This document shows positions 4,337 to 23,222 of a stretch of DNA of 24,604 nucleotides, piece by piece. Origin of the DNA: a virus; the IMG/VR virus record IMGVR_UViG_3300006080_000012, positions 1 to 24,604 of that record; one strand, written 5' to 3'. Made by a program: the position numbers and the translations under genes. How positions within the stretch are numbered: position 1 is the first letter of the stretch; the number at the start of each line of letters is the position of its first letter. Below the pieces are notes generated by a model. It saw only the letters and a program-made list of their open reading frames with translations, was not told the DNA's origin and ran no database searches.

Positions 4337-4602
4337 TGCAAGAATCTTTAATTATCTTATCTGAGGAGTGTGCAGAAGTACAAGTAGCTATATCTAAAAT
4401 ACTTCGCTTTGGATTAGATGACCCTAAGAATAAAAAACAATTGGAGGATGAGATAGGTGATATACTTGCTATGTTAGCTATATTAGACTTCAATGACTAT
4501 ATCGATAGTGATAGGGTCATGAAACGTGTCCCGATTAAGTTAAGGAAGCTAAAGAAGTGGAGTAAGATCAATCATCTAGACGACATCATCGAAAACTTAT
4601 AA
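4336..4602 (+). CDS. mazG: MazG-like nucleotide pyrophosphohydrolase
   Basis: An 88-residue all-helical protein with the MazG/dUTPase-superfamily metal motif: EExxE at residues 10-14 (EECAE) and ExxD at 39-42 (EIGD), separated by a typical spacer. Such proteins hydrolyse (d)NTPs, or possibly (p)ppGpp-related nucleotides, to monophosphates. It is shorter than full bacterial MazG and corresponds to a single catalytic half, as in many phage versions. The C terminus is Lys-rich. It closes the operon that began at 3745, and the TATAAATA late-type box overlaps its last codons. The substrate is not deducible here. Confidence 0.75.
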   Translation: MQESLIILSEECAEVQVAISKILRFGLDDPKNKKQLEDEIGDILAMLAILDFNDYIDSDRVMKRVPIKLRKLKKWSKINHLDDIIENL

Positions 4603-4605
4603 ATA
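4598..4605 (+). promoter_or_regulatory. candidate T4-type late promoter
   Basis: TATAAATA, the T4 late (gp55/gp33-dependent) -10 element, lies 26 bases ahead of the ATG at 4632, the first gene of the putative packaged-protein operon. By base composition about three or four such octamers are expected by chance on this strand, and others do occur inside genes (9935, 16582). The support is therefore its position ahead of an operon expected to be late, not the match itself. Confidence 0.45.
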
Positions 4606-4631: not shown

Positions 4632-5288
4632 ATGTTAAACTTTAAACGTTATTTGGATGAAGGAAGAAATGATCCCGGAATCTTTCACGCTATATTCATG
4701 GCTGGTGGACCTGGCTCTGGTAAATCTACTGTAGCAGCCCAGCTGGGATTACGCCCACTAGGTTTCGTCGATATTAACTCTGATACTGCATTTGAAACGG
4801 GACTAAAGAAGTCCCTTTTGTCGTTAAAGATGCCAGACTCAGAAGAATATCCTCGTAATATCGTAAGGGGAATAGCAAAGAAAACTGCAAACGCAAAGCA
4901 CGGTCATGCAATTGACGGTAGATTAGCTATGGTTATTGACGGCACGGGTAAAGATTCAAAGAAGATTGGTAAGAAGGTTAAGGACTTAGAATTGCTAGGA
5001 TATGAAACTGCAATGGTATTTGTTAACACTGATCTTGAAACCGCATTAGAAAGAAACGAGAAGAGAGAAAGAAGCCTTAAGCCAGCAGTGGTAACTAAGA
5101 TGTGGAAGCAAGTTCAATCAAACCTAAAGTCCTTCAAGAAGACATTTGGATCAAGATTATACGTTATTGATAATAATAATTATGAAGTATCTGGTGCACA
5201 ATCGGCTAAGGTATATACTAAGATTATGACGTGGGCTAAGAAACTACCAGACAATCCTGCAGTAGCTAACTGGATGGAACATTCATGA
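4632..5288 (+). CDS. P-loop kinase (zeta-toxin/PNK-like) with capsid-targeting N terminus
   Basis: A 218-residue P-loop NTPase with Walker A GGPGSGKST at 25-33, DINSD after the second strand (about 48-52), VIDGTGKD near 106-113 and an Arg-rich lid (ERNEKRERS, about 140-148). This layout is that of AAA_33/zeta-toxin and polynucleotide-kinase-like small-molecule or nucleic-acid kinases. Residues 1-10 are MLNFKRYLDE followed by G11, matching the T4 capsid-targeting sequence with its L-x-E/G cleavage site. It is the first gene after a TATAAATA box and overlaps the next by ATGA. I infer that it is packed in the head, trimmed by the prohead protease and ejected. The substrate (nucleoside, RNA 5' end, UDP-sugar) cannot be told from sequence. 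Confidence 0.75.
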   Translation: MLNFKRYLDEGRNDPGIFHAIFMAGGPGSGKSTVAAQLGLRPLGFVDINSDTAFETGLKKSLLSLKMPDSEEYPRNIVRGIAKKTANAKHGHAIDGRLAMVIDGTGKDSKKIGKKVKDLELLGYETAMVFVNTDLETALERNEKRERSLKPAVVTKMWKQVQSNLKSFKKTFGSRLYVIDNNNYEVSGAQSAKVYTKIMTWAKKLPDNPAVANWMEHS

Positions 5289-6580
5289 GGAGATTCAAAT
5301 ACTTCTTGTCTGAAGCTCCCCTCGCTGTAAAGTCTATAGCTAGAAATCCTATTTACGGAAAGAATATAGCTAAGCAGATAGAAGATGGAGTTCCTTTTGA
5401 GTTAAATGGGGGAGGCACTGTTGTATTGAAGAAGAATGCAAAAACAATTAAAGCATTTAATACAAACAATGAAGTCCCTGTTGAAGTTGAAACTGAGGAT
5501 GGCAAGATAATCAAAGTGTCTTCTCTCAAGAAAACTGAAAGCATTAAGGGAGCAGGAACCAAGTTATCCAATAGAGGAGATGTTGCAGAAGGGATTCTAG
5601 CCGCAGCCATATTCATGAAGTTTGCTGGAATGCCTATGAATGCTAAGACTCTTAACAATATCCTTACTGAAGAGATTAAATTAAAAAAAGATCTTGTTGC
5701 TACATCAACCTCTAAACCATCTGATGATTTAGTACTATACGTCAATCTAGCTGAGAACCACTTTGCATCTCTAACAAACCCGTCAGAAGATTTTGTGGTT
5801 CTACGTAGTGATCTTGTTAAAAGTGCTTTAGAATATGCAGGAGCTAAAAACGCTACTAGATACGCCAAATTCTTTCAAACAAACCAAAAGCACGACAAAG
5901 TTCGTATCGTAGCTGATGGACTAGGTGGACAGAGAGATACTAAGGCTGACCTATATGTAGAATGGACAACAGCTCATTCTGTAACTGGTGAAACTACTAC
6001 AAGAAAGCTTAATCTCAACATATCGTTAAAAGTTGGTACTGTTAAACAGTTCGGTCAAGTGTCTGGGTCTAAGTTTGTTAATCAACAAGCATTGTGGGAT
6101 ACGTTTGGAGTATCAATTGCAGAAGCTGAGTCTAAGTACAACCAGCTGATCAAACAAAGTAAAGTTGCTGACGCTGTTGTATTATCATACAAAACAGCGT
6201 ATAATGTTATTAATAAGGGATTTGCAGGTAAGTCTGAAGACTTATCCCCTATACTAAGACTATTCAAAGCAATTAAGAAACACGCTACCTTAGGAGATAA
6301 TATCGAGTTAGTGCAGCTAGACAAGGGAACTTTTAAGAAGTTTAAGTTTAATATGACGGACACAGCCATGAAGAAACTAGCAAAAGAACATAAATTTAAT
6401 GTATCATGGAAGATGAGCAAGGGAAAAACGCCACTTCCTACAGTAACAATCAATATGGACAACATTCCGTTTCTATCTATCAGATCAAAGGTAGATTCAA
6501 ACAACAAAGATGGAAGTTTTTACGTACGTAATCTAATTGAAAAGCAGAAGGGGTTTGCCCAGTTTTATAAAATAAAATAA
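5285..6580 (+). CDS. putative PD-(D/E)XK nuclease-like protein with capsid-targeting N terminus
   Basis: A 431-residue protein beginning MRRFKYFLSE/A, the same targeting signature as its neighbours, with cleavage predicted after E10. Further in, NRGDVAEGILAAA (about 97-108, E102), TKADLYV (D222) and NISLKVG (S247-x-K249) followed by a FGQVSGSKF stretch have the order and spacing of the restriction-endonuclease-like core: helix Glu, then Asp, then (E/Q/S)xK. The middle and C-terminal regions are Lys-rich with no other motif. I have seen similar long proteins in marine T4-like phages without known function. A nuclease fold is inferred and the active site is not proven. It overlaps its upstream gene by four bases. 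Confidence 0.6.
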   Translation: MRRFKYFLSEAPLAVKSIARNPIYGKNIAKQIEDGVPFELNGGGTVVLKKNAKTIKAFNTNNEVPVEVETEDGKIIKVSSLKKTESIKGAGTKLSNRGDVAEGILAAAIFMKFAGMPMNAKTLNNILTEEIKLKKDLVATSTSKPSDDLVLYVNLAENHFASLTNPSEDFVVLRSDLVKSALEYAGAKNATRYAKFFQTNQKHDKVRIVADGLGGQRDTKADLYVEWTTAHSVTGETTTRKLNLNISLKVGTVKQFGQVSGSKFVNQQALWDTFGVSIAEAESKYNQLIKQSKVADAVVLSYKTAYNVINKGFAGKSEDLSPILRLFKAIKKHATLGDNIELVQLDKGTFKKFKFNMTDTAMKKLAKEHKFNVSWKMSKGKTPLPTVTINMDNIPFLSIRSKVDSNNKDGSFYVRNLIEKQKGFAQFYKIK

Positions 6581-6632
6581 GTGGATTATACAATGAAATC
6601 ATTTAGTAGGAAAACGAGACATGAGTAGTTAA

Positions 6633-6890
6633 GTGGGGACGCTAATCCAATTCAGACCATTAACTAAACGTAAAGAATATGTTGAGTTATGGCCTGCGGA
6701 TTGGGAAAGCGAATTTAATCCTACATTATATGAATTACAGGCATCGCTTGAAACAATTGAAAATTACCGTAGTATATTAATAGAGGAATTAGCTACTGCT
6801 GGAGTATACGCAGAGTTTGGTATAAGGGAAGGATTGCAGCAATTAGATTGCATGCATGTCGTATTAATGAATTATTACAGAACAGATTAA
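6633..6890 (+). CDS. small hypothetical protein, GTG start
   Basis: An 85-residue protein that can only start at the GTG immediately after an in-frame TAA (6630-6632), as there is no ATG before residue 74 or so. Ribosome-binding signal is weak. The sequence is largely helical (LYELQASLETIENYRSIL) with two tryptophans near residues 20-24. It lies between two genes with the targeting signature but lacks that signature. An 11-codon minigene (MKSFSRKTRHE, 6593-6628) sits just upstream and might act as a leader. Function unknown. Confidence 0.6.
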   Translation: MGTLIQFRPLTKRKEYVELWPADWESEFNPTLYELQASLETIENYRSILIEELATAGVYAEFGIREGLQQLDCMHVVLMNYYRTD

Positions 6891-6891
6891 G

Positions 6892-7413
6892 ATGAATACA
6901 TTTAAACAACATTTAATAGAACAAGAGCAATTGGATGAATTATTCCCGTTGATACCAATCATTGGGGCAGCATTCATACCTTGGGTAATTGATAATGCAA
7001 CAGATCCTATAGCTATTCAGACAGTTGCAAAATCTGATACAGCAGCCGCTATCTGGGATATGATCAAAGATATCGGTATAGTAGCTTGGGGTGAGATGTG
7101 GCCGGCAATTGCTGGATTTGCCGGAGCATTTATTCTAATTAAATATGCCCCTAAATTCCTAAAATGGTTTTATGATACAGTTAAGTATGATAAGATAGGT
7201 AAGGAGTTAAGAAATGATAAGGACGTTGCTGCGTTATTTGTTAGAGCATCTAAAGATAAACAACTAGCAGCTGATATAAAACTAGTATTAGTTGGTATGT
7301 CAAAAGAACAGCCTGGATTAATGAAAAGAATGACCAAAGACTTTATAAAGAAAGCTAAAAAGGATGATAAGGCAAAAGGATTAATCACTAAGGCAGTTTC
7401 GAAATTAAAATGA
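6892..7413 (+). CDS. membrane protein with capsid-targeting-like N terminus
   Basis: A 173-residue protein with N terminus MNTFKQHLIE/Q: F4, K5, L8 and E10 fit the shared signature, but the residue after the expected cut is Gln rather than Ala or Gly. Two hydrophobic stretches follow, FPLIPIIGAAFIPWVI (about 19-34) and WPAIAGFAGAFILIKYA (about 66-82), then a basic helical C-terminal domain (KKAKKDDKAKG). If it is packaged and ejected, a role in the host inner membrane during DNA entry or as an early immunity protein is conceivable; this is inference. The stop overlaps the next ATG (ATGA). Confidence 0.65.
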   Translation: MNTFKQHLIEQEQLDELFPLIPIIGAAFIPWVIDNATDPIAIQTVAKSDTAAAIWDMIKDIGIVAWGEMWPAIAGFAGAFILIKYAPKFLKWFYDTVKYDKIGKELRNDKDVAALFVRASKDKQLAADIKLVLVGMSKEQPGLMKRMTKDFIKKAKKDDKAKGLITKAVSKLK

Positions 7414-8645
7414 TTAAATTTAGAAAATATCTCGAGGAAGCGAAGAACACTCATATGACCCATATCGAGGATATGGTAATTGATGGTGGTGTTAACGGCA
7501 CGCGTGCGGCTATTAATGCATTGCGTGATTTAAGAGATATGCTTGGTGGTCATACAAATGATACTAAAGCAGTAACGGTTAAGTGGGACGGAGCACCAGC
7601 TGTGTTTGCTGGTATCGATCCAAGTGACGGGGAGTTTTTCATTGCAAAAAAAGGAATCTTTAACAAAAATCCTAAAGTATATAAGTCTTTGGGTGATATC
7701 GATGCAGATACTAGCGGCGATCTATCTAGTAAGCTCAAAGTTGCTTTTATTGAGCTGGCTAAACTAGGTATTAAGAAAGGTGTATATCAAGGTGACATCA
7801 TGTTCACTAAGAGCGATCTTAAGAAAGAAACTATTGATGGGGTAAAGTATGTTACATTTCATCCTAATACTATTGTTTATGCTATACCTGTATCTGATGC
7901 TGCCGATGTATTAAAGGCTAAAATTGGAGTTGTATGGCATACTAAATATAGTGGAAGTTCATTTGAAACTATGAATGCTTCATTCGGAGTAGGCTTGGGT
8001 GAATTTAAAAAAGTAAGTAGTGTATGGCAGAAGAGTGCTGACCTACCTGATATGTCTGGTGTGGCTACATTAACTAAAAAGGAAACTGATGATATCACTA
8101 AACACATCTCCAATGCTGGAAAAATATTTAACAAAATTAAAGCCTCTACCCTCACTGATGTTTCAACCAATAAAGAAATTAACCTTTACATTAATACATT
8201 TAGAAACACGAAGGTCAGAGGACAGAGCGAAATTTCTAACACAAAACAACACGTACAAGAACTCATAGATTGGATTCACAATAGGTACGATAAAGAGATA
8301 GATAAGCTAAAGAGTGATAAGGGAAAGGCGCGTAAGAATGCTAAGAAGATTGAAGCATTGACCTGGTTCTCTAATGATAATAAAAAGAATTTACAATTGA
8401 TGTTTGATATGCAAAATTCATTAGTAGATGCTAAACGTGAGTTACTACAACATCTGGATAAATTAGACAGTATAAGTACATTTGTAAAGACTAAGGATGG
8501 CTTTAAAGTAACAGGTGCTGAAGGGTACGTTGCAATTGATCACCTAACTAATGGTGCAGTTAAGATTGTAGATCGTATGGAATTTAGTTATAATAATTTT
8601 TCAAAGAACATAATCAAAGGATGGGAATCAGATGCAAGAGGATAA
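7410..8645 (+). CDS. ligase-like nucleotidyltransferase domain protein with capsid-targeting N terminus
   Basis: A 411-residue protein starting MIKFRKYLEE/A, a perfect fit to the targeting signature. VTVKWDGAPAVFAG (K58-W-D-G61) resembles motif I of the DNA/RNA ligase and capping-enzyme superfamily, where the Lys is adenylated. FFIAKKGIF (76-84) and GVYQGDIMFT (124-133) sit where motifs Ia/III would be expected, and VVWHTKYSG follows further on. A clean motif IV (EGxVxK) is not obvious. The C-terminal third is helical and Lys-rich. Similar proteins occur in marine T4-like phages as conserved hypotheticals. I favour a nucleic-acid end-sealing or nucleotidyl-transfer role, with moderate confidence. 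It overlaps the next gene by 14 bases. Confidence 0.6.
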   Translation: MIKFRKYLEEAKNTHMTHIEDMVIDGGVNGTRAAINALRDLRDMLGGHTNDTKAVTVKWDGAPAVFAGIDPSDGEFFIAKKGIFNKNPKVYKSLGDIDADTSGDLSSKLKVAFIELAKLGIKKGVYQGDIMFTKSDLKKETIDGVKYVTFHPNTIVYAIPVSDAADVLKAKIGVVWHTKYSGSSFETMNASFGVGLGEFKKVSSVWQKSADLPDMSGVATLTKKETDDITKHISNAGKIFNKIKASTLTDVSTNKEINLYINTFRNTKVRGQSEISNTKQHVQELIDWIHNRYDKEIDKLKSDKGKARKNAKKIEALTWFSNDNKKNLQLMFDMQNSLVDAKRELLQHLDKLDSISTFVKTKDGFKVTGAEGYVAIDHLTNGAVKIVDRMEFSYNNFSKNIIKGWESDARG

Positions 8646-9207
8646 TATAAACGAAATGAAGAATAAATTAGGTGACCCTAAAGCCTTAATGAAAGTTGCT
8701 AAGGGTTATAAGGGCGATGATAAAGATGATATGGAATGGGCAGCTGATATGATCGCTAAGATTGATATGCCCGGTCTTAAAACTCTTCTTAGTAGATTAG
8801 ATACTGCAATCCGTGATGAGGTCTTAGGTGCTATTAATAAGAAGCATTGGAAGAAGTTAGGCTACACACCAATCGGCGAAGCGTTAGATGCTAAGCAACG
8901 TATGAAGATGAAACAAGCATTTAAAAAGTCAGCTGCTAAGCGTAAGATTGGTATGAAGAAATCCGCTAAGAAACTTAAAACTCCAGACAAGCTTAAAAAG
9001 ACGGCTATGAAGAAAGCAAGAGATATGGTAGCTAAGAAGATGGTTAAAGGTGTTGATAAGAAAGATATGTCATTCGCTCAACGTAAAAGTCTTGAGAAGA
9101 AATTAGATAAGAAGAAAGGCGCTATTGCTAAACTAGCTAAGAAGATTAAAGGTAAGGTTAAGATGGCTGATAAAGAAAGAGTTAAGAAGGCTAGATCTAA
9201 AAAATGA
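8632..9207 (+). CDS. Lys-rich core-like protein with internal prohead-protease-type site
   Basis: A 191-residue protein in two parts. Residues 1-80 are mixed helical and acidic. From about 86 the protein is extremely Lys/Arg-rich (repeated KK, MKKSAKKLK, AKKMVKGVDKKDMS). The junction reads TPIGE/ALD (E83/A84), an I-x-E/A site like those cut by T4 gp21. The basic tail with its SFAQRKSLEKKLDKKKGAI segment resembles a DNA-binding or scaffold-core module found on several marine T4-like phage proteins, often next to a targeting sequence. It lacks the N-terminal signature of its neighbours. A DNA-condensing internal head protein or scaffold component is the likeliest role, by inference. Confidence 0.65.
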   Translation: MQEDNINEMKNKLGDPKALMKVAKGYKGDDKDDMEWAADMIAKIDMPGLKTLLSRLDTAIRDEVLGAINKKHWKKLGYTPIGEALDAKQRMKMKQAFKKSAAKRKIGMKKSAKKLKTPDKLKKTAMKKARDMVAKKMVKGVDKKDMSFAQRKSLEKKLDKKKGAIAKLAKKIKGKVKMADKERVKKARSKK

Positions 9208-10022
9208 TTCACGGATTTAAGGAGCATTATCTATCAGAGGCTGCAGCTGAAACCGTTGTTATTAACTTTGGTAGATTTAATCCACCTACAAATGGGCATG
9301 AGAAACTATTAGCAGCTTCAGTGAAGGCAGCTAAGGGTGTTCATCGTGTATATGCTTCTCAATCACAAGATGCTAAGAAGAATCCTTTATCTTACAAAGA
9401 AAAGATTAAGTTCATGCGTAAGATGTTTCCCAAGCATGCCCGTAATATCTTATTAGATACTAAGGTAAGAACCTTCTTTGATGCCCTTGTTATTGCACAT
9501 GATGATGGATTTAAGAAATGCGTTATCGTAGTAGGTTCTGATCGAGTTAAAGAATTTGATACAGCCCTAAATAAATATAACGGAGTTGAAGCCCGTCATG
9601 GATTTTATGAATTCGATGGTGGTGTTAAGGTTGTAAGTGCAGGAGAAAGAGATCCAGATGCTGATGGTGTATCAGGTATGTCCGCATCTAAATTGAGATC
9701 ATCCGCAAAGGATAATGATCTTATAACCTTTACTAAGGGAATGCCAAAAGGTTATAAAGGTGCTGAATCGTTAATGAAGGCTGTTAGAGCTGGAATGGGA
9801 TTGAAAGAGTCTAACTGTTTTAGAAAGAATATGAAGTTAAAGAGAACAACAATGTTACGTGAGAAGTATATTGAAGGTAATTTATTTGAAGTGGGTGATA
9901 AGGTTATTATAGATGAAACAAGGGAAGTAGCTACTATAAATAAATTATGTAGCAATTATGTGGAAGTTGATATTAATGGAAAGACAAAGAACGTCTGGAT
10001 TTCCGATATATGCAAGGAGTGA
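9204..10022 (+). CDS. HIGH-superfamily nucleotidyltransferase with capsid-targeting N terminus
   Basis: A 272-residue protein: targeting signature MIHGFKEHYLSE/A (cut expected after E12), then a cytidylyltransferase/NMN-adenylyltransferase-type Rossmann domain. GRFNPPTNGH at 23-32 is the (H/N)xGH nucleotide-binding motif, VVGSDRV lies near 109-115, and GMSASKLR at 158-165 corresponds to the ISSTxxR motif. The last 50 residues (FEVGDKVIIDE through VWISDICKE) look like a small SH3/KOW-like beta-barrel also seen in other phage proteins. Family members transfer AMP or CMP to NMN, nicotinate mononucleotide or phospho-compounds. The substrate is not determinable here, but NAD synthesis is plausible. 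It overlaps the previous gene by ATGA. Confidence 0.75.
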   Translation: MIHGFKEHYLSEAAAETVVINFGRFNPPTNGHEKLLAASVKAAKGVHRVYASQSQDAKKNPLSYKEKIKFMRKMFPKHARNILLDTKVRTFFDALVIAHDDGFKKCVIVVGSDRVKEFDTALNKYNGVEARHGFYEFDGGVKVVSAGERDPDADGVSGMSASKLRSSAKDNDLITFTKGMPKGYKGAESLMKAVRAGMGLKESNCFRKNMKLKRTTMLREKYIEGNLFEVGDKVIIDETREVATINKLCSNYVEVDINGKTKNVWISDICKE

Positions 10023-18123: not shown

Positions 18124-18780
18124 ATGTTTAAACATGAACCTATCAACTTAGGATACGATGATTTAAGTTGCATAACAAAAACAACTGGTAGAAAATATGA
18201 AACACCTGCGGGCAATTCATATCCTTCTATCACTACGGTATTATCACTACAATCTAAAGAAGCTATTGCTAAATGGCGAGCTCGTGTAGGTAGTGAAGAA
18301 GCTAATAAAATATCTTATAAAGCCTCTACCAGAGGAACTGCAGTTCATGACATGGCTGAGAAATATGTTAACAATGATCCTAGTTGGAACGTTGCTATGC
18401 CTAATATCTTAGGTGATTTCATGAATATCAAACCTATACTAGACGAAAGATTGTCATTAGTATACGGACAAGAATTACCACTATACTCAGATCACTTGCG
18501 ATTAGCAGGTAGAGTAGACTGTGTGGGTATATTCGATGGTGAGATTAGTATCATCGACTATAAGACATCCAGAAGGAAAAAGAAATATGACTGGGTTAAA
18601 AGCTATTTCATGCAAGAAGCATTTTATGCAATTGCTTGGGAGGAAAGAACGGGTATGCCAATTACTCAACTTGTGACTATCATTGCTGTAGATAATGATG
18701 ACCCACAAGTGTTTATTGAACATAGAGATAATTGGGATAAAGAATTAATTAGATGCATTAAGGAGTATAATGAACAATAA
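18124..18780 (+). CDS. PD-(D/E)XK exonuclease (RecB/Cas4/MGME1-like)
   Basis: A 218-residue nuclease of the RecB-like branch of PD-(D/E)XK enzymes. RGTAVHDMAEKY (H75) is the helical His motif. GRVDCVGIFDGEISIIDYKT gives D132 and D145-x-K147, and QEAFYAIAWEE (Q164 to Y168) is the QxxxY motif. All motif residues are present and in order, so it should be active on DNA ends. Related single-domain nucleases in phages are thought to process DNA ends in recombination or degrade host DNA. It is the first gene after a strong promoter and overlaps the clpP-like gene by 11 bases. Confidence 0.88.
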   Translation: MFKHEPINLGYDDLSCITKTTGRKYETPAGNSYPSITTVLSLQSKEAIAKWRARVGSEEANKISYKASTRGTAVHDMAEKYVNNDPSWNVAMPNILGDFMNIKPILDERLSLVYGQELPLYSDHLRLAGRVDCVGIFDGEISIIDYKTSRRKKKYDWVKSYFMQEAFYAIAWEERTGMPITQLVTIIAVDNDDPQVFIEHRDNWDKELIRCIKEYNEQ

Positions 18781-19369
18781 TATGGGATTACTTGATAGCT
18801 TAGTCGGCCAAGACATTAAAGATAACTTTAGCAAACCAGTAGCATATAACCACGATTACTATTTAAGTGGAGCAATTGAAGGACCAGAGAACTATACTGA
18901 TTGGTTTGATCAAATAAGAAACGCTACGTCAGAGGATACTATTACGATTCATATTAATAGTCCTGGTGGATCATTAGCAACAGCATTACAATTCTTTAGG
19001 GTCTTAGGCGAAAGTCAAGCTACCATTATTGCTTCGATTGAAGGTGAAGCTATGAGTGCAGCAACTATCATTATGATGCAAGCTGATGCATATCTTATTT
19101 CTCCACACTCTATGTTTATGTTCCATAACTATTCTGGTGGTGCATTTGGTAAGGGTGGTGAGATGATGGATCAATTAGAATTCGAAAGACTATGGAGTAC
19201 TAATTTCTTACATGAAGTATACAAAGACTTCTTAACTGAAGATGAAGTTAACAATATCTTAGACAATAGAGACATCTGGCTAACAACTGATGAAGTATCT
19301 GAAAGACTATCAAATAGAGCACAGATCATTCAAAAGGAAAAAGAAGATGCCGACTCAGAAGAAGAATAG
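18770..19369 (+). CDS. clpP: ClpP-like serine protease
   Basis: A 199-residue ClpP-fold protease. Ser96 in EGEAMSAAT, His119 in MFMFHNYSG and Asp168 in DNRDIWL complete the catalytic triad, and HINSPGGSL (61-69) is the oxyanion-hole glycine loop. Length is typical of ClpP. The last 20 or so residues are acidic and unstructured. The protein should form barrel-shaped oligomers, using a host Clp ATPase or acting alone. In head-assembly modules ClpP-like proteases mature capsids, but this one sits among replication and nuclease genes, so regulated degradation of host or phage proteins is as likely. AGGAG four bases before the ATG. Confidence 0.92.
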   Translation: MNNNMGLLDSLVGQDIKDNFSKPVAYNHDYYLSGAIEGPENYTDWFDQIRNATSEDTITIHINSPGGSLATALQFFRVLGESQATIIASIEGEAMSAATIIMMQADAYLISPHSMFMFHNYSGGAFGKGGEMMDQLEFERLWSTNFLHEVYKDFLTEDEVNNILDNRDIWLTTDEVSERLSNRAQIIQKEKEDADSEEE

Positions 19370-22296: not shown

Positions 22297-23172
22297 ATGT
22301 TAAACAAAACAATTCTTGCTACTGCAGTAGCAACAACAATGACAATGGCAGTAGCTGGTGTTACTATTACAGGTGATTACACAGGTTTTATCACTAATGA
22401 TAGCTCAGCAACTTCGTATGCACAAGACTTAGATCTTACCATTAAAGGTACTATGTTAGATAATACTACATCGGTAACAGCTACAATTGAAAACTTAGGT
22501 GGGACGTCTGATACATTATCTGTTAATGAGTTATACGTTGATACTAATATTGAAGGCTTAAACGTTAAGTTAGGTAAATATGAGGGTATGAATGGTACGG
22601 GTATTATGCAAAATAAATCAGTAGCCATTAATAAACTTAATATTGGTTTAGGTGCTGCTGGTTATGGTGTATCAGTTAATCAAGTATCTGGTGCTAGTAA
22701 CGTTACATTTGATACAACGGGTAGTCTCGGTGGTATTAACTTTAAGGTACAAGACATAGCTAATACTGATCGTTACATCTCAGCTTCAAGTGACGTTGCT
22801 GGTATCGAAGTAGCAGTTGAATATCAAAAGACTGCTATTGGTACTAATACTGGTTTAGCGGCTGCTACACAAGTAGCTGGTTATGGTATAACGTATGCAC
22901 AAGTAGATGTTGGTGATGCCGCTGGCGTTACTCAAGACGGTTCTGTTACAAATGAAAGAACTAGTATCTTAGAAGATATCTCTGATGCAGTTACTGGTAA
23001 AGTAGTACGTGGTATCGTATTATCAAGAGGTGATGTTACCGGTAAGGTAATTAAGAAGAATGATAAGATGACTTACGTAGCATTATTTGATAAAGGTCCT
23101 ATGCAATACAGTTATGCTAAGACTGAAGCATCTGATGGTGTGTTTGGAGCTAGAGTAGCGTTTAACTTTTAA
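22297..23172 (+). CDS. outer-membrane porin-like protein
   Basis: A 291-residue protein with a signal peptide (MLNKTILATAVATTMTMAVA, cleavage before VTITGDYTG). Alternating polar/hydrophobic strands run the whole length, typical of a beta-barrel (GLNVKLGKYEG, YGVSVNQVSG, VAVEYQKTAIG, MQYSYAKTEAS), and the last strand VFGARVAFNF ends in Phe, the outer-membrane-protein signal read by the BAM complex. No cysteines; one long loop around residues 205-235. AAGGAAACAAA precedes the ATG. Codons are simple and repetitive (GGT, GCT, ACT), like highly expressed genes. Phage-encoded porins are known (lambdoid Lc/NmpC) but are unusual in a T4-like genome. It was perhaps acquired from a host and could replace the receptor or raise uptake. 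Confidence 0.8.
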   Translation: MLNKTILATAVATTMTMAVAGVTITGDYTGFITNDSSATSYAQDLDLTIKGTMLDNTTSVTATIENLGGTSDTLSVNELYVDTNIEGLNVKLGKYEGMNGTGIMQNKSVAINKLNIGLGAAGYGVSVNQVSGASNVTFDTTGSLGGINFKVQDIANTDRYISASSDVAGIEVAVEYQKTAIGTNTGLAAATQVAGYGITYAQVDVGDAAGVTQDGSVTNERTSILEDISDAVTGKVVRGIVLSRGDVTGKVIKKNDKMTYVALFDKGPMQYSYAKTEASDGVFGARVAFNF

Positions 23173-23222
23173 ATGTAAATAAATTATAAATAACTGTATG
23201 AACTTCAGTTAATTAATTTCAG

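Follow-up and report, generated by a model that had tools for sequence, protein, structure and literature searches.

A T4-type head-loading leader on unrelated products of one operon in a T4-like phage fragment: a candidate protein kit delivered with the DNA

The capsid-targeting sequence (CTS) of bacteriophage T4 has long been used for loading foreign proteins. In T4 itself it comprises the first 10 residues of the protein; in internal protein (IP) III, positions 4 and 7 serve targeting and positions 8 and 10 serve processing, and the prohead protease gp21 cuts after L/I-x-E (PMC9026906). IPI blocks a restriction enzyme, and the IPs of T-even phages are diverse anti-restriction proteins with only the CTS in common (PMC3012670); IPIII works in the cytoplasm of the host, also when its CTS is missing, and lets the phage grow on a defended strain (PMC9391042); RNA polymerase is modified by Alt (PMC9026906). 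Neither this signal nor the suggestion that it lets T4-like phages vary their cargo is new (PMC9026906, PMC3012670). The subject here is a tightly packed operon at 4632-10022 of IMG/VR record IMGVR_UViG_3300006080_000012, a virus record of 24,604 bases without head genes (the window, meaning the whole stretch analysed), in which five unrelated genes begin with a common leader of 10-12 residues. Because enzymes encoded there share the T4 head-loading tag, this marine phage is likely to bring a ready-made set of proteins into its host along with the DNA; loading by a T4-type CTS, cutting by a prohead protease and delivery with DNA together form the best explanation, and one that we hold with considerable confidence.

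The leaders have F4, Y, F or H at position 7, L8 and E10 in common. Their register deviates at two points, with H for the aromatic residue 7 in the 6892 gene (genes are named here by their first nucleotide) and two extra residues in the 9204 gene. Re-reading of the sequence returned the same five N termini and coordinates as the original prediction; the start calls are well supported because three of the starts (5285, 7410 and 9204) overlap the preceding stop (ATGA) and a fourth (6892) lies one base past the stop before it.

A leader rule was built from the targeting and processing positions of T4 IPIII: aromatic at 4, aromatic at 7, L or I at 8, and E at 10. Among the 235 ATG/GTG starts of the window the rule picks exactly these five genes, which bears out the earlier claim that they carry the internal-protein register of T4 together with its L/I-x-E cut; the scan finds no leader on the window's replication proteins. 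Applied to T4 as a positive control, it returns 5 of 1822 starts, two of them the annotated IPII and IPIII. The full register is needed because L-x-E alone, anywhere within residues 7-15, is common (~17-30% of genes). A position matrix trained on relatives with the window left out, the training set including homologues of some of the five, scores each leader at p<=0.001 against internal sequence; the binomial probability of five such leaders in ~40 genes is ~6e-10, a figure to be read with those homologues in mind. Homogenisation of leaders within genomes was also considered and dropped: one of three gene pairs was suggestive (p=0.0125), the others giving 0.65 and 0.998.

Relatives of the kinase, the DUF6267 protein and the nucleotidyltransferase were sought in IMG/VR with bodies stripped of their leaders. 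L-x-E lies at residues 7-15 in 207 of 222 distinct N termini from the three families, against the ~17-30% of genes in general, while the other leader residues and the leader length vary; the expectation that the first ten residues would be conserved apart from the bodies thus holds for the cut motif. A search for more proteins with the signature had also been proposed, and a rule-based census of relatives counted two or more distinct leaders in each of at least 15 body families. The leader is also borne by PD-(D/E)XK-like proteins (motif by eye) and by additional membrane-like proteins. One contig, L228 (IMGVR_UViG_3300014613_000105), carries at least six rule-positive proteins in a single stretch; a membrane-like protein is among them, as are a 5'-nucleotidase (Pfam) and an RNA ligase (Pfam 7e-25), the last two each a single-genome case.

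The boundary of the leader can be read in DUF6267. As annotated, the proteins of phages S-SZBM1 and S-WAM1 are leaderless and begin M/AKNTH and M/SKNTH (a slash marks the cut, or the position corresponding to it); that is, they start with the residue right after the predicted cut of the window's protein (MIKFRKYLEE/AKNTH). In HTVC008M the same protein begins MYNDLLVE/DKNTH. Read from these sequences, the leader behaves as a module independent of the body, gained or lost at the predicted cut.

The capsid side of the system is visible in relatives. A gp21-family (Peptidase_S77) protease is present in 12 of 25 related records searched, the same 12 that hold gp23; its absence from the other 13 is put down to the fragmentary state of the contigs. 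In two of the 12, the DUF6267 protein is 76-77% identical to that of the window. Near residues 45-60 of relatives' major capsid proteins lie sites of the same kind: FLSE/AAP in Melnitz, LLGE/AAP in DLP_6, QLHE/A in G003 and YISE/A in G015, with ILTE/A in S-SZBM1, and FLTE/T and SISE/G in other relatives; T4 has FLTE/A. The capsid sites FLSE/A and YISE/A share their motif with the leader ends FLSE/A and YLSE/A. A small protein encoded between portal and protease has a similar leader in several relatives, for instance MRTFKELRE/A in C48C1 (from an upstream GTG) and MLTFAELRE/A in G011.

Published mass spectrometry of virions bears on homologues or equally tagged proteins of relatives, and only on their presence. 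CsCl-purified virions of S-CREM2 yielded 52 proteins (PMC10665884). The rule is positive for 7 of the 219 annotated proteins of this phage, 5 of which are in the virion list (Fisher p=0.009): a S-adenosylmethionine (SAM) hydrolase (MKDFDSFLEE), an APH/ChoK-like kinase ((V)KRFDAFLTE), a cytidylyltransferase (MKNFSSFLTE/A), and the products of open reading frames (ORFs) ORF13 and ORF136. Shuffled S-CREM2 N termini give a mean of 0.5 matches and a maximum of 4, against the 7 real ones. Virion proteins of S-SZBM1 include the cytidylyltransferase of the syntenic locus, with leader MRFRQFIIE/A, and its neighbours 139 and 136 (PMC9146016); the leaderless S-SZBM1 DUF6267 is not in the virion list. NMNAT is reported in virions of S-SCSM1 (PMC9602691).

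Two further observations concern these cyanophages. In S-CREM2 (OR473000, 7704-10313, minus strand) a virion-detected nuclease annotated as Cas9 contains, at a CTG codon, LRFASFMAE/A within the N terminus as annotated; from the sequence, its start may be misannotated. In S-SZBM1 (OL473597, 122311-123125, minus strand) adjacent small genes beginning MKSFKSFLSE/S and MKTFKQYITE/A lie by virion protein 190; neither was detected by mass spectrometry.

A T4-type box, TATAAATA, precedes the operon and recurs before the first cluster gene in relatives, at -38 in G003, -39 in G011 and -47 in Melnitz. It is present in 19 of 67 distinct upstream regions of the kinase family, against a background of ~8%, although the p value for this difference is overstated because the sequences are related.

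On the preferred account, each cargo protein would be made late in infection with an N-terminal CTS like that of the T4 internal proteins; aromatic residues 4 and 7 would bind the prohead core; a gp21-type protease would cleave behind L/I-x-E (residue 10, or 12 in one gene); and the mature, positively charged proteins would stay beside the DNA in the head and accompany it into the next host. Packaging and cleavage in the window phage, and ejection, are inferred. The proposal of head packaging has been strengthened from several sides: leaders kept across unrelated bodies, protease and capsid sites in relatives, recovery of T4 IPII and IPIII by the rule, and the virion proteins of relatives.

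Several results weigh against it. The rule misses IPI and Alt of T4, and its three other T4 matches (gp61.1, gp61.4 read from an alternative start, and a frame within uvsW) are not known to be packaged. The authors of the S-CREM2 and S-SCSM1 studies allow that some virion proteins may be carry-over (PMC10665884, PMC9602691). The rule is partly post hoc, as the S-CREM2 N termini were known before it was fixed, and the enrichment in S-CREM2 depends on it: p was 0.12-0.36 with a looser earlier pattern and no better than 0.06 with the trained matrix, the probable cause being that D or S stands in cyanophage leaders where relatives have K. In S-SZBM1, only one of three annotated rule-positive proteins was detected. 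A gp21-family protease is absent from the window, which is only a 24.6 kb fragment; the original prediction proposed looking for one in the rest of the genome, and all 12 gp23-holding related records have one. Finally, the window holds 4 copies of TATAAATA against 5.9 expected by chance, no enrichment; the operon does stand behind such a box, in a position that recurs in relatives.

Beside the T4 control stands a separate observation: gp61.1 of T4 (54 amino acids, function unknown; NC_000866 18966-19130, minus strand) starts with a CTS-like leader, MKTFKEFIKE/D, and to judge from this may be an unrecognised internal protein. Assignment of the T4 match at 114210 to gp68 was rejected, as it lies inside the annotated uvsW, and no support is drawn from it.

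Other explanations of the leader have to be set against these results. The proteins might be packaged, but for a job in the head itself (DNA condensation, core assembly or head size), with none in the next host. Such a role has been proposed for T4 IPIII, mutants of which slow head assembly (PMC9026906), and it would suit bodies that are all net basic, one of them at +36. Kinase, ligase-like and nucleotidyltransferase folds are unneeded for condensation, however, and the cargo varies between genomes; moreover, T4 IPIII works in the host cytoplasm with or without its CTS (PMC9391042), and a SAM hydrolase is among the S-CREM2 cargo. A purely structural role is judged unlikely.

That the leader serves instead to dock the proteins on some other phage complex (replisome, clamp or membrane), and is no packaging signal at all, is very improbable. 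The operon does adjoin replication genes, as the cluster of relatives lies between gp41 helicase/MazG and ribonucleotide reductase; yet the L/I-x-E/A or G ending is the motif at which capsid proteins are cut, the window's own replication proteins are untagged, tagged homologues occur in virions, and leaderless homologues begin at the cut. Chance together with common ancestry of short N termini, the mass spectrometry signal being carry-over of abundant late proteins, would draw on the frequency of L-x-E alone and on the modest strength of the S-CREM2 test (p=0.009, by a partly post hoc rule). Five leaders in one operon, the sharing of the leader by at least 15 unrelated families, and the excess of real over shuffled S-CREM2 matches make this a most improbable account.

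Head loading of the operon's products, the reading preferred here, leaves the composition of the cargo to be considered (Table 1).

Table 1. The operon and its upstream box; a slash marks the predicted cut
Feature	Position	Strand	Leader or remark
TATAAATA, T4-type late-promoter-like box	4598..4605	+	34 nt before first leader-gene ATG
P-loop kinase, polynucleotide-kinase/zeta type	4632..5288	+	leader MLNFKRYLDE/G = 4632-4661
PD-(D/E)XK-nuclease-like protein, by motif alone	5285..6580	+	leader MRRFKYFLSE/A = 5285-5314
Small gene inside operon, without leader	6633..6890	+	matrix score -3.2; homologues leaderless too
Putative membrane protein, two hydrophobic segments	6892..7413	+	leader MNTFKQHLIE/Q = 6892-6921
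DUF6267 protein, ligase-like nucleotidyltransferase	7410..8645	+	leader MIKFRKYLEE/A = 7410-7439
Very basic protein (K+R 31%)	8632..9207	+	predicted cut after E83 (nt 8880), PIGE/ALD
NMNAT/cytidylyltransferase-like enzyme with C-terminal extra domain	9204..10022	+	leader MIHGFKEHYLSE/A = 9204-9239

The kinase matches Pfam AAA_33 (5.7e-13) and Zeta_toxin (2.8e-10) and the PHROG for polynucleotide kinase (9.7e-12), and its leader is kept in homologues; PADLOC gave only a weak VakA match. The 9204 product matches Pfam CTP_transf_like (7.4e-6) and the PHROG for cytidyltransferase (1.5e-61). A PDB sequence search with these two proteins returned nothing at E<=0.01. In the 9204 product a linker, GLKE/S (9804-9812, residues 201-203; cut after nt 9809), is kept in 18 of 19 homologues; lying before the C-terminal domain, it is a possible second prohead-protease cut and recalls the C-terminal processing of T4 Alt (PMC9026906).

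The 5285 product has the motifs ADLYVEW at 221 and ISLK at 246, found by eye, and belongs to PHROG 3560, of unknown function (4e-41); tblastn found no homologues of it in viral contigs, and a single-sequence structure prediction was unusable (predicted local distance difference test, pLDDT, 33). Hydropathy of the 6892 product peaks near residues 15-35 and 72-90, and its homologues retain M(K/N)TFKQHLIEQ. The 7410 product is assigned to DUF6267 (Pfam 3.6e-98) and has KWDG at 58, EGYVAID at 371 and KIVDR (K385), all conserved in the alignment; of these, KWDG is similar to ligase motif I (KxDG), EGYV to motif IV (EG) and K385 to motif V (K). In a predicted model (mean pLDDT 72), the region ~54-213 has among its VIA matches a fungal tRNA ligase and several DNA ligases (Z 4.5-6.1), matches that are weak alone and consistent with a ligase-like protein; Foldseek with this model found no match at E<=0.001. 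The functions first assigned to the five fare unequally: kinase and nucleotidyltransferase are backed by Pfam and PHROG, nuclease-like by motif, membrane protein by hydropathy, and ligase-like by motifs and weak structural matches.

The list of five itself stands, and has to be extended by the basic 8632 gene, which the original prediction missed; the leaderless 6633 gene went unmentioned there and is, from its sequence, probably not cargo. In the window the 8632 product has no N-terminal leader; PIGE/ALDAKQR precedes its basic body, which carries a net charge of ~+36 after the predicted cut. It is counted as a putative sixth cargo gene because this motif sits where the C48C1 homologue (at 63080) has a canonical leader with the same boundary, MLSFKQFVSE/VLDATQR; the homologue in L089 is leader-bearing too. 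The mature cargo bodies are all net positive.

The window's other genes are of T4-like phage type: UvsX-like, helicase, MazG, ThyX, ribonucleotide reductase and PhoH (sequence-based names, with Pfam agreeing for MazG). By DUF6267, the closest annotated relative is Phage C48C1 (Kyanoviridae), followed by Methylophilales phage Melnitz and Stenotrophomonas phage DLP_6. At 22297-23172 there is a product that appears porin-like with a signal peptide, followed by another TATAAATA at 23185; an outer-membrane protein would be unusual in a phage. The product of 18770-19369 reads as a ClpP-family protease-like protein.

The operon resembles T4 IPI, IPII, IPIII and Alt in its 10-residue signal, with aromatic residues at 4 and 7, L or I at 8 and E at 10, and its predicted cut after L/I-x-E; in its basic cargo; and in the diversity of bodies that have the leader alone in common. 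It differs in grouping five or six genes in one operon, mostly enzyme-like and of ~200-430 amino acids, with one putative membrane protein, whereas the IPs of T4 are small and Alt is its only enzyme. The virion NMNAT/cytidylyltransferase and kinases of S-CREM2, S-SZBM1 and S-SCSM1 include a related cytidylyltransferase with the same kind of leader, and the S-SZBM1 locus is syntenic with that of the window (MazG and DUF6267), its DUF6267 differing in having no leader and going undetected in virions. As far as the available text of these papers goes, their authors report the virion proteins without naming the leader, and two leave true packaging open. By description, there is also a likeness to the ejection bolus of SPN3US/phiKZ-type giant phages, whose proteins are reportedly packaged in the head, processed by prohead protease and passed into the cell. 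A search of the open-access literature, with most subscription papers and preprints outside it, found no report of the leader in marine phages or on cyanophage virion enzymes.

For the job of such cargo, take-over or counter-defence in the first minutes of infection is the most likely candidate, at about an even chance. The original prediction had the proteins acting before transcription, perhaps against host defences; the case for this is an analogy, to IPI, IPIII and Alt of T4 and to the SAM hydrolase carried by S-CREM2. Most of what is known of natural CTS cargo comes from T-even phages; the present census puts the leader of marine phages on no fewer than 15 unrelated families, and the leader offers a packaging mechanism for cyanophage virion enzymes whose packaging was left open. 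It also supplies a sequence rule for predicting which phage proteins of unknown function enter the cell with the DNA, which leads directly to new proteins for counter-defence and take-over.

A more specific proposal, speculative and on balance doubtful, makes the operon a kit for repair and counter-defence that is delivered from the head and works ahead of all phage gene expression. If that were true, the kinase and the ligase-like protein would mend tRNA or DNA ends cut by the host, the NMNAT-like enzyme would counter NAD-depleting defences by restoring NAD+, and the host membrane would take up the hydrophobic protein; for marine T4-like phages as a group the tag would then be an interchangeable means of loading many proteins of this kind.

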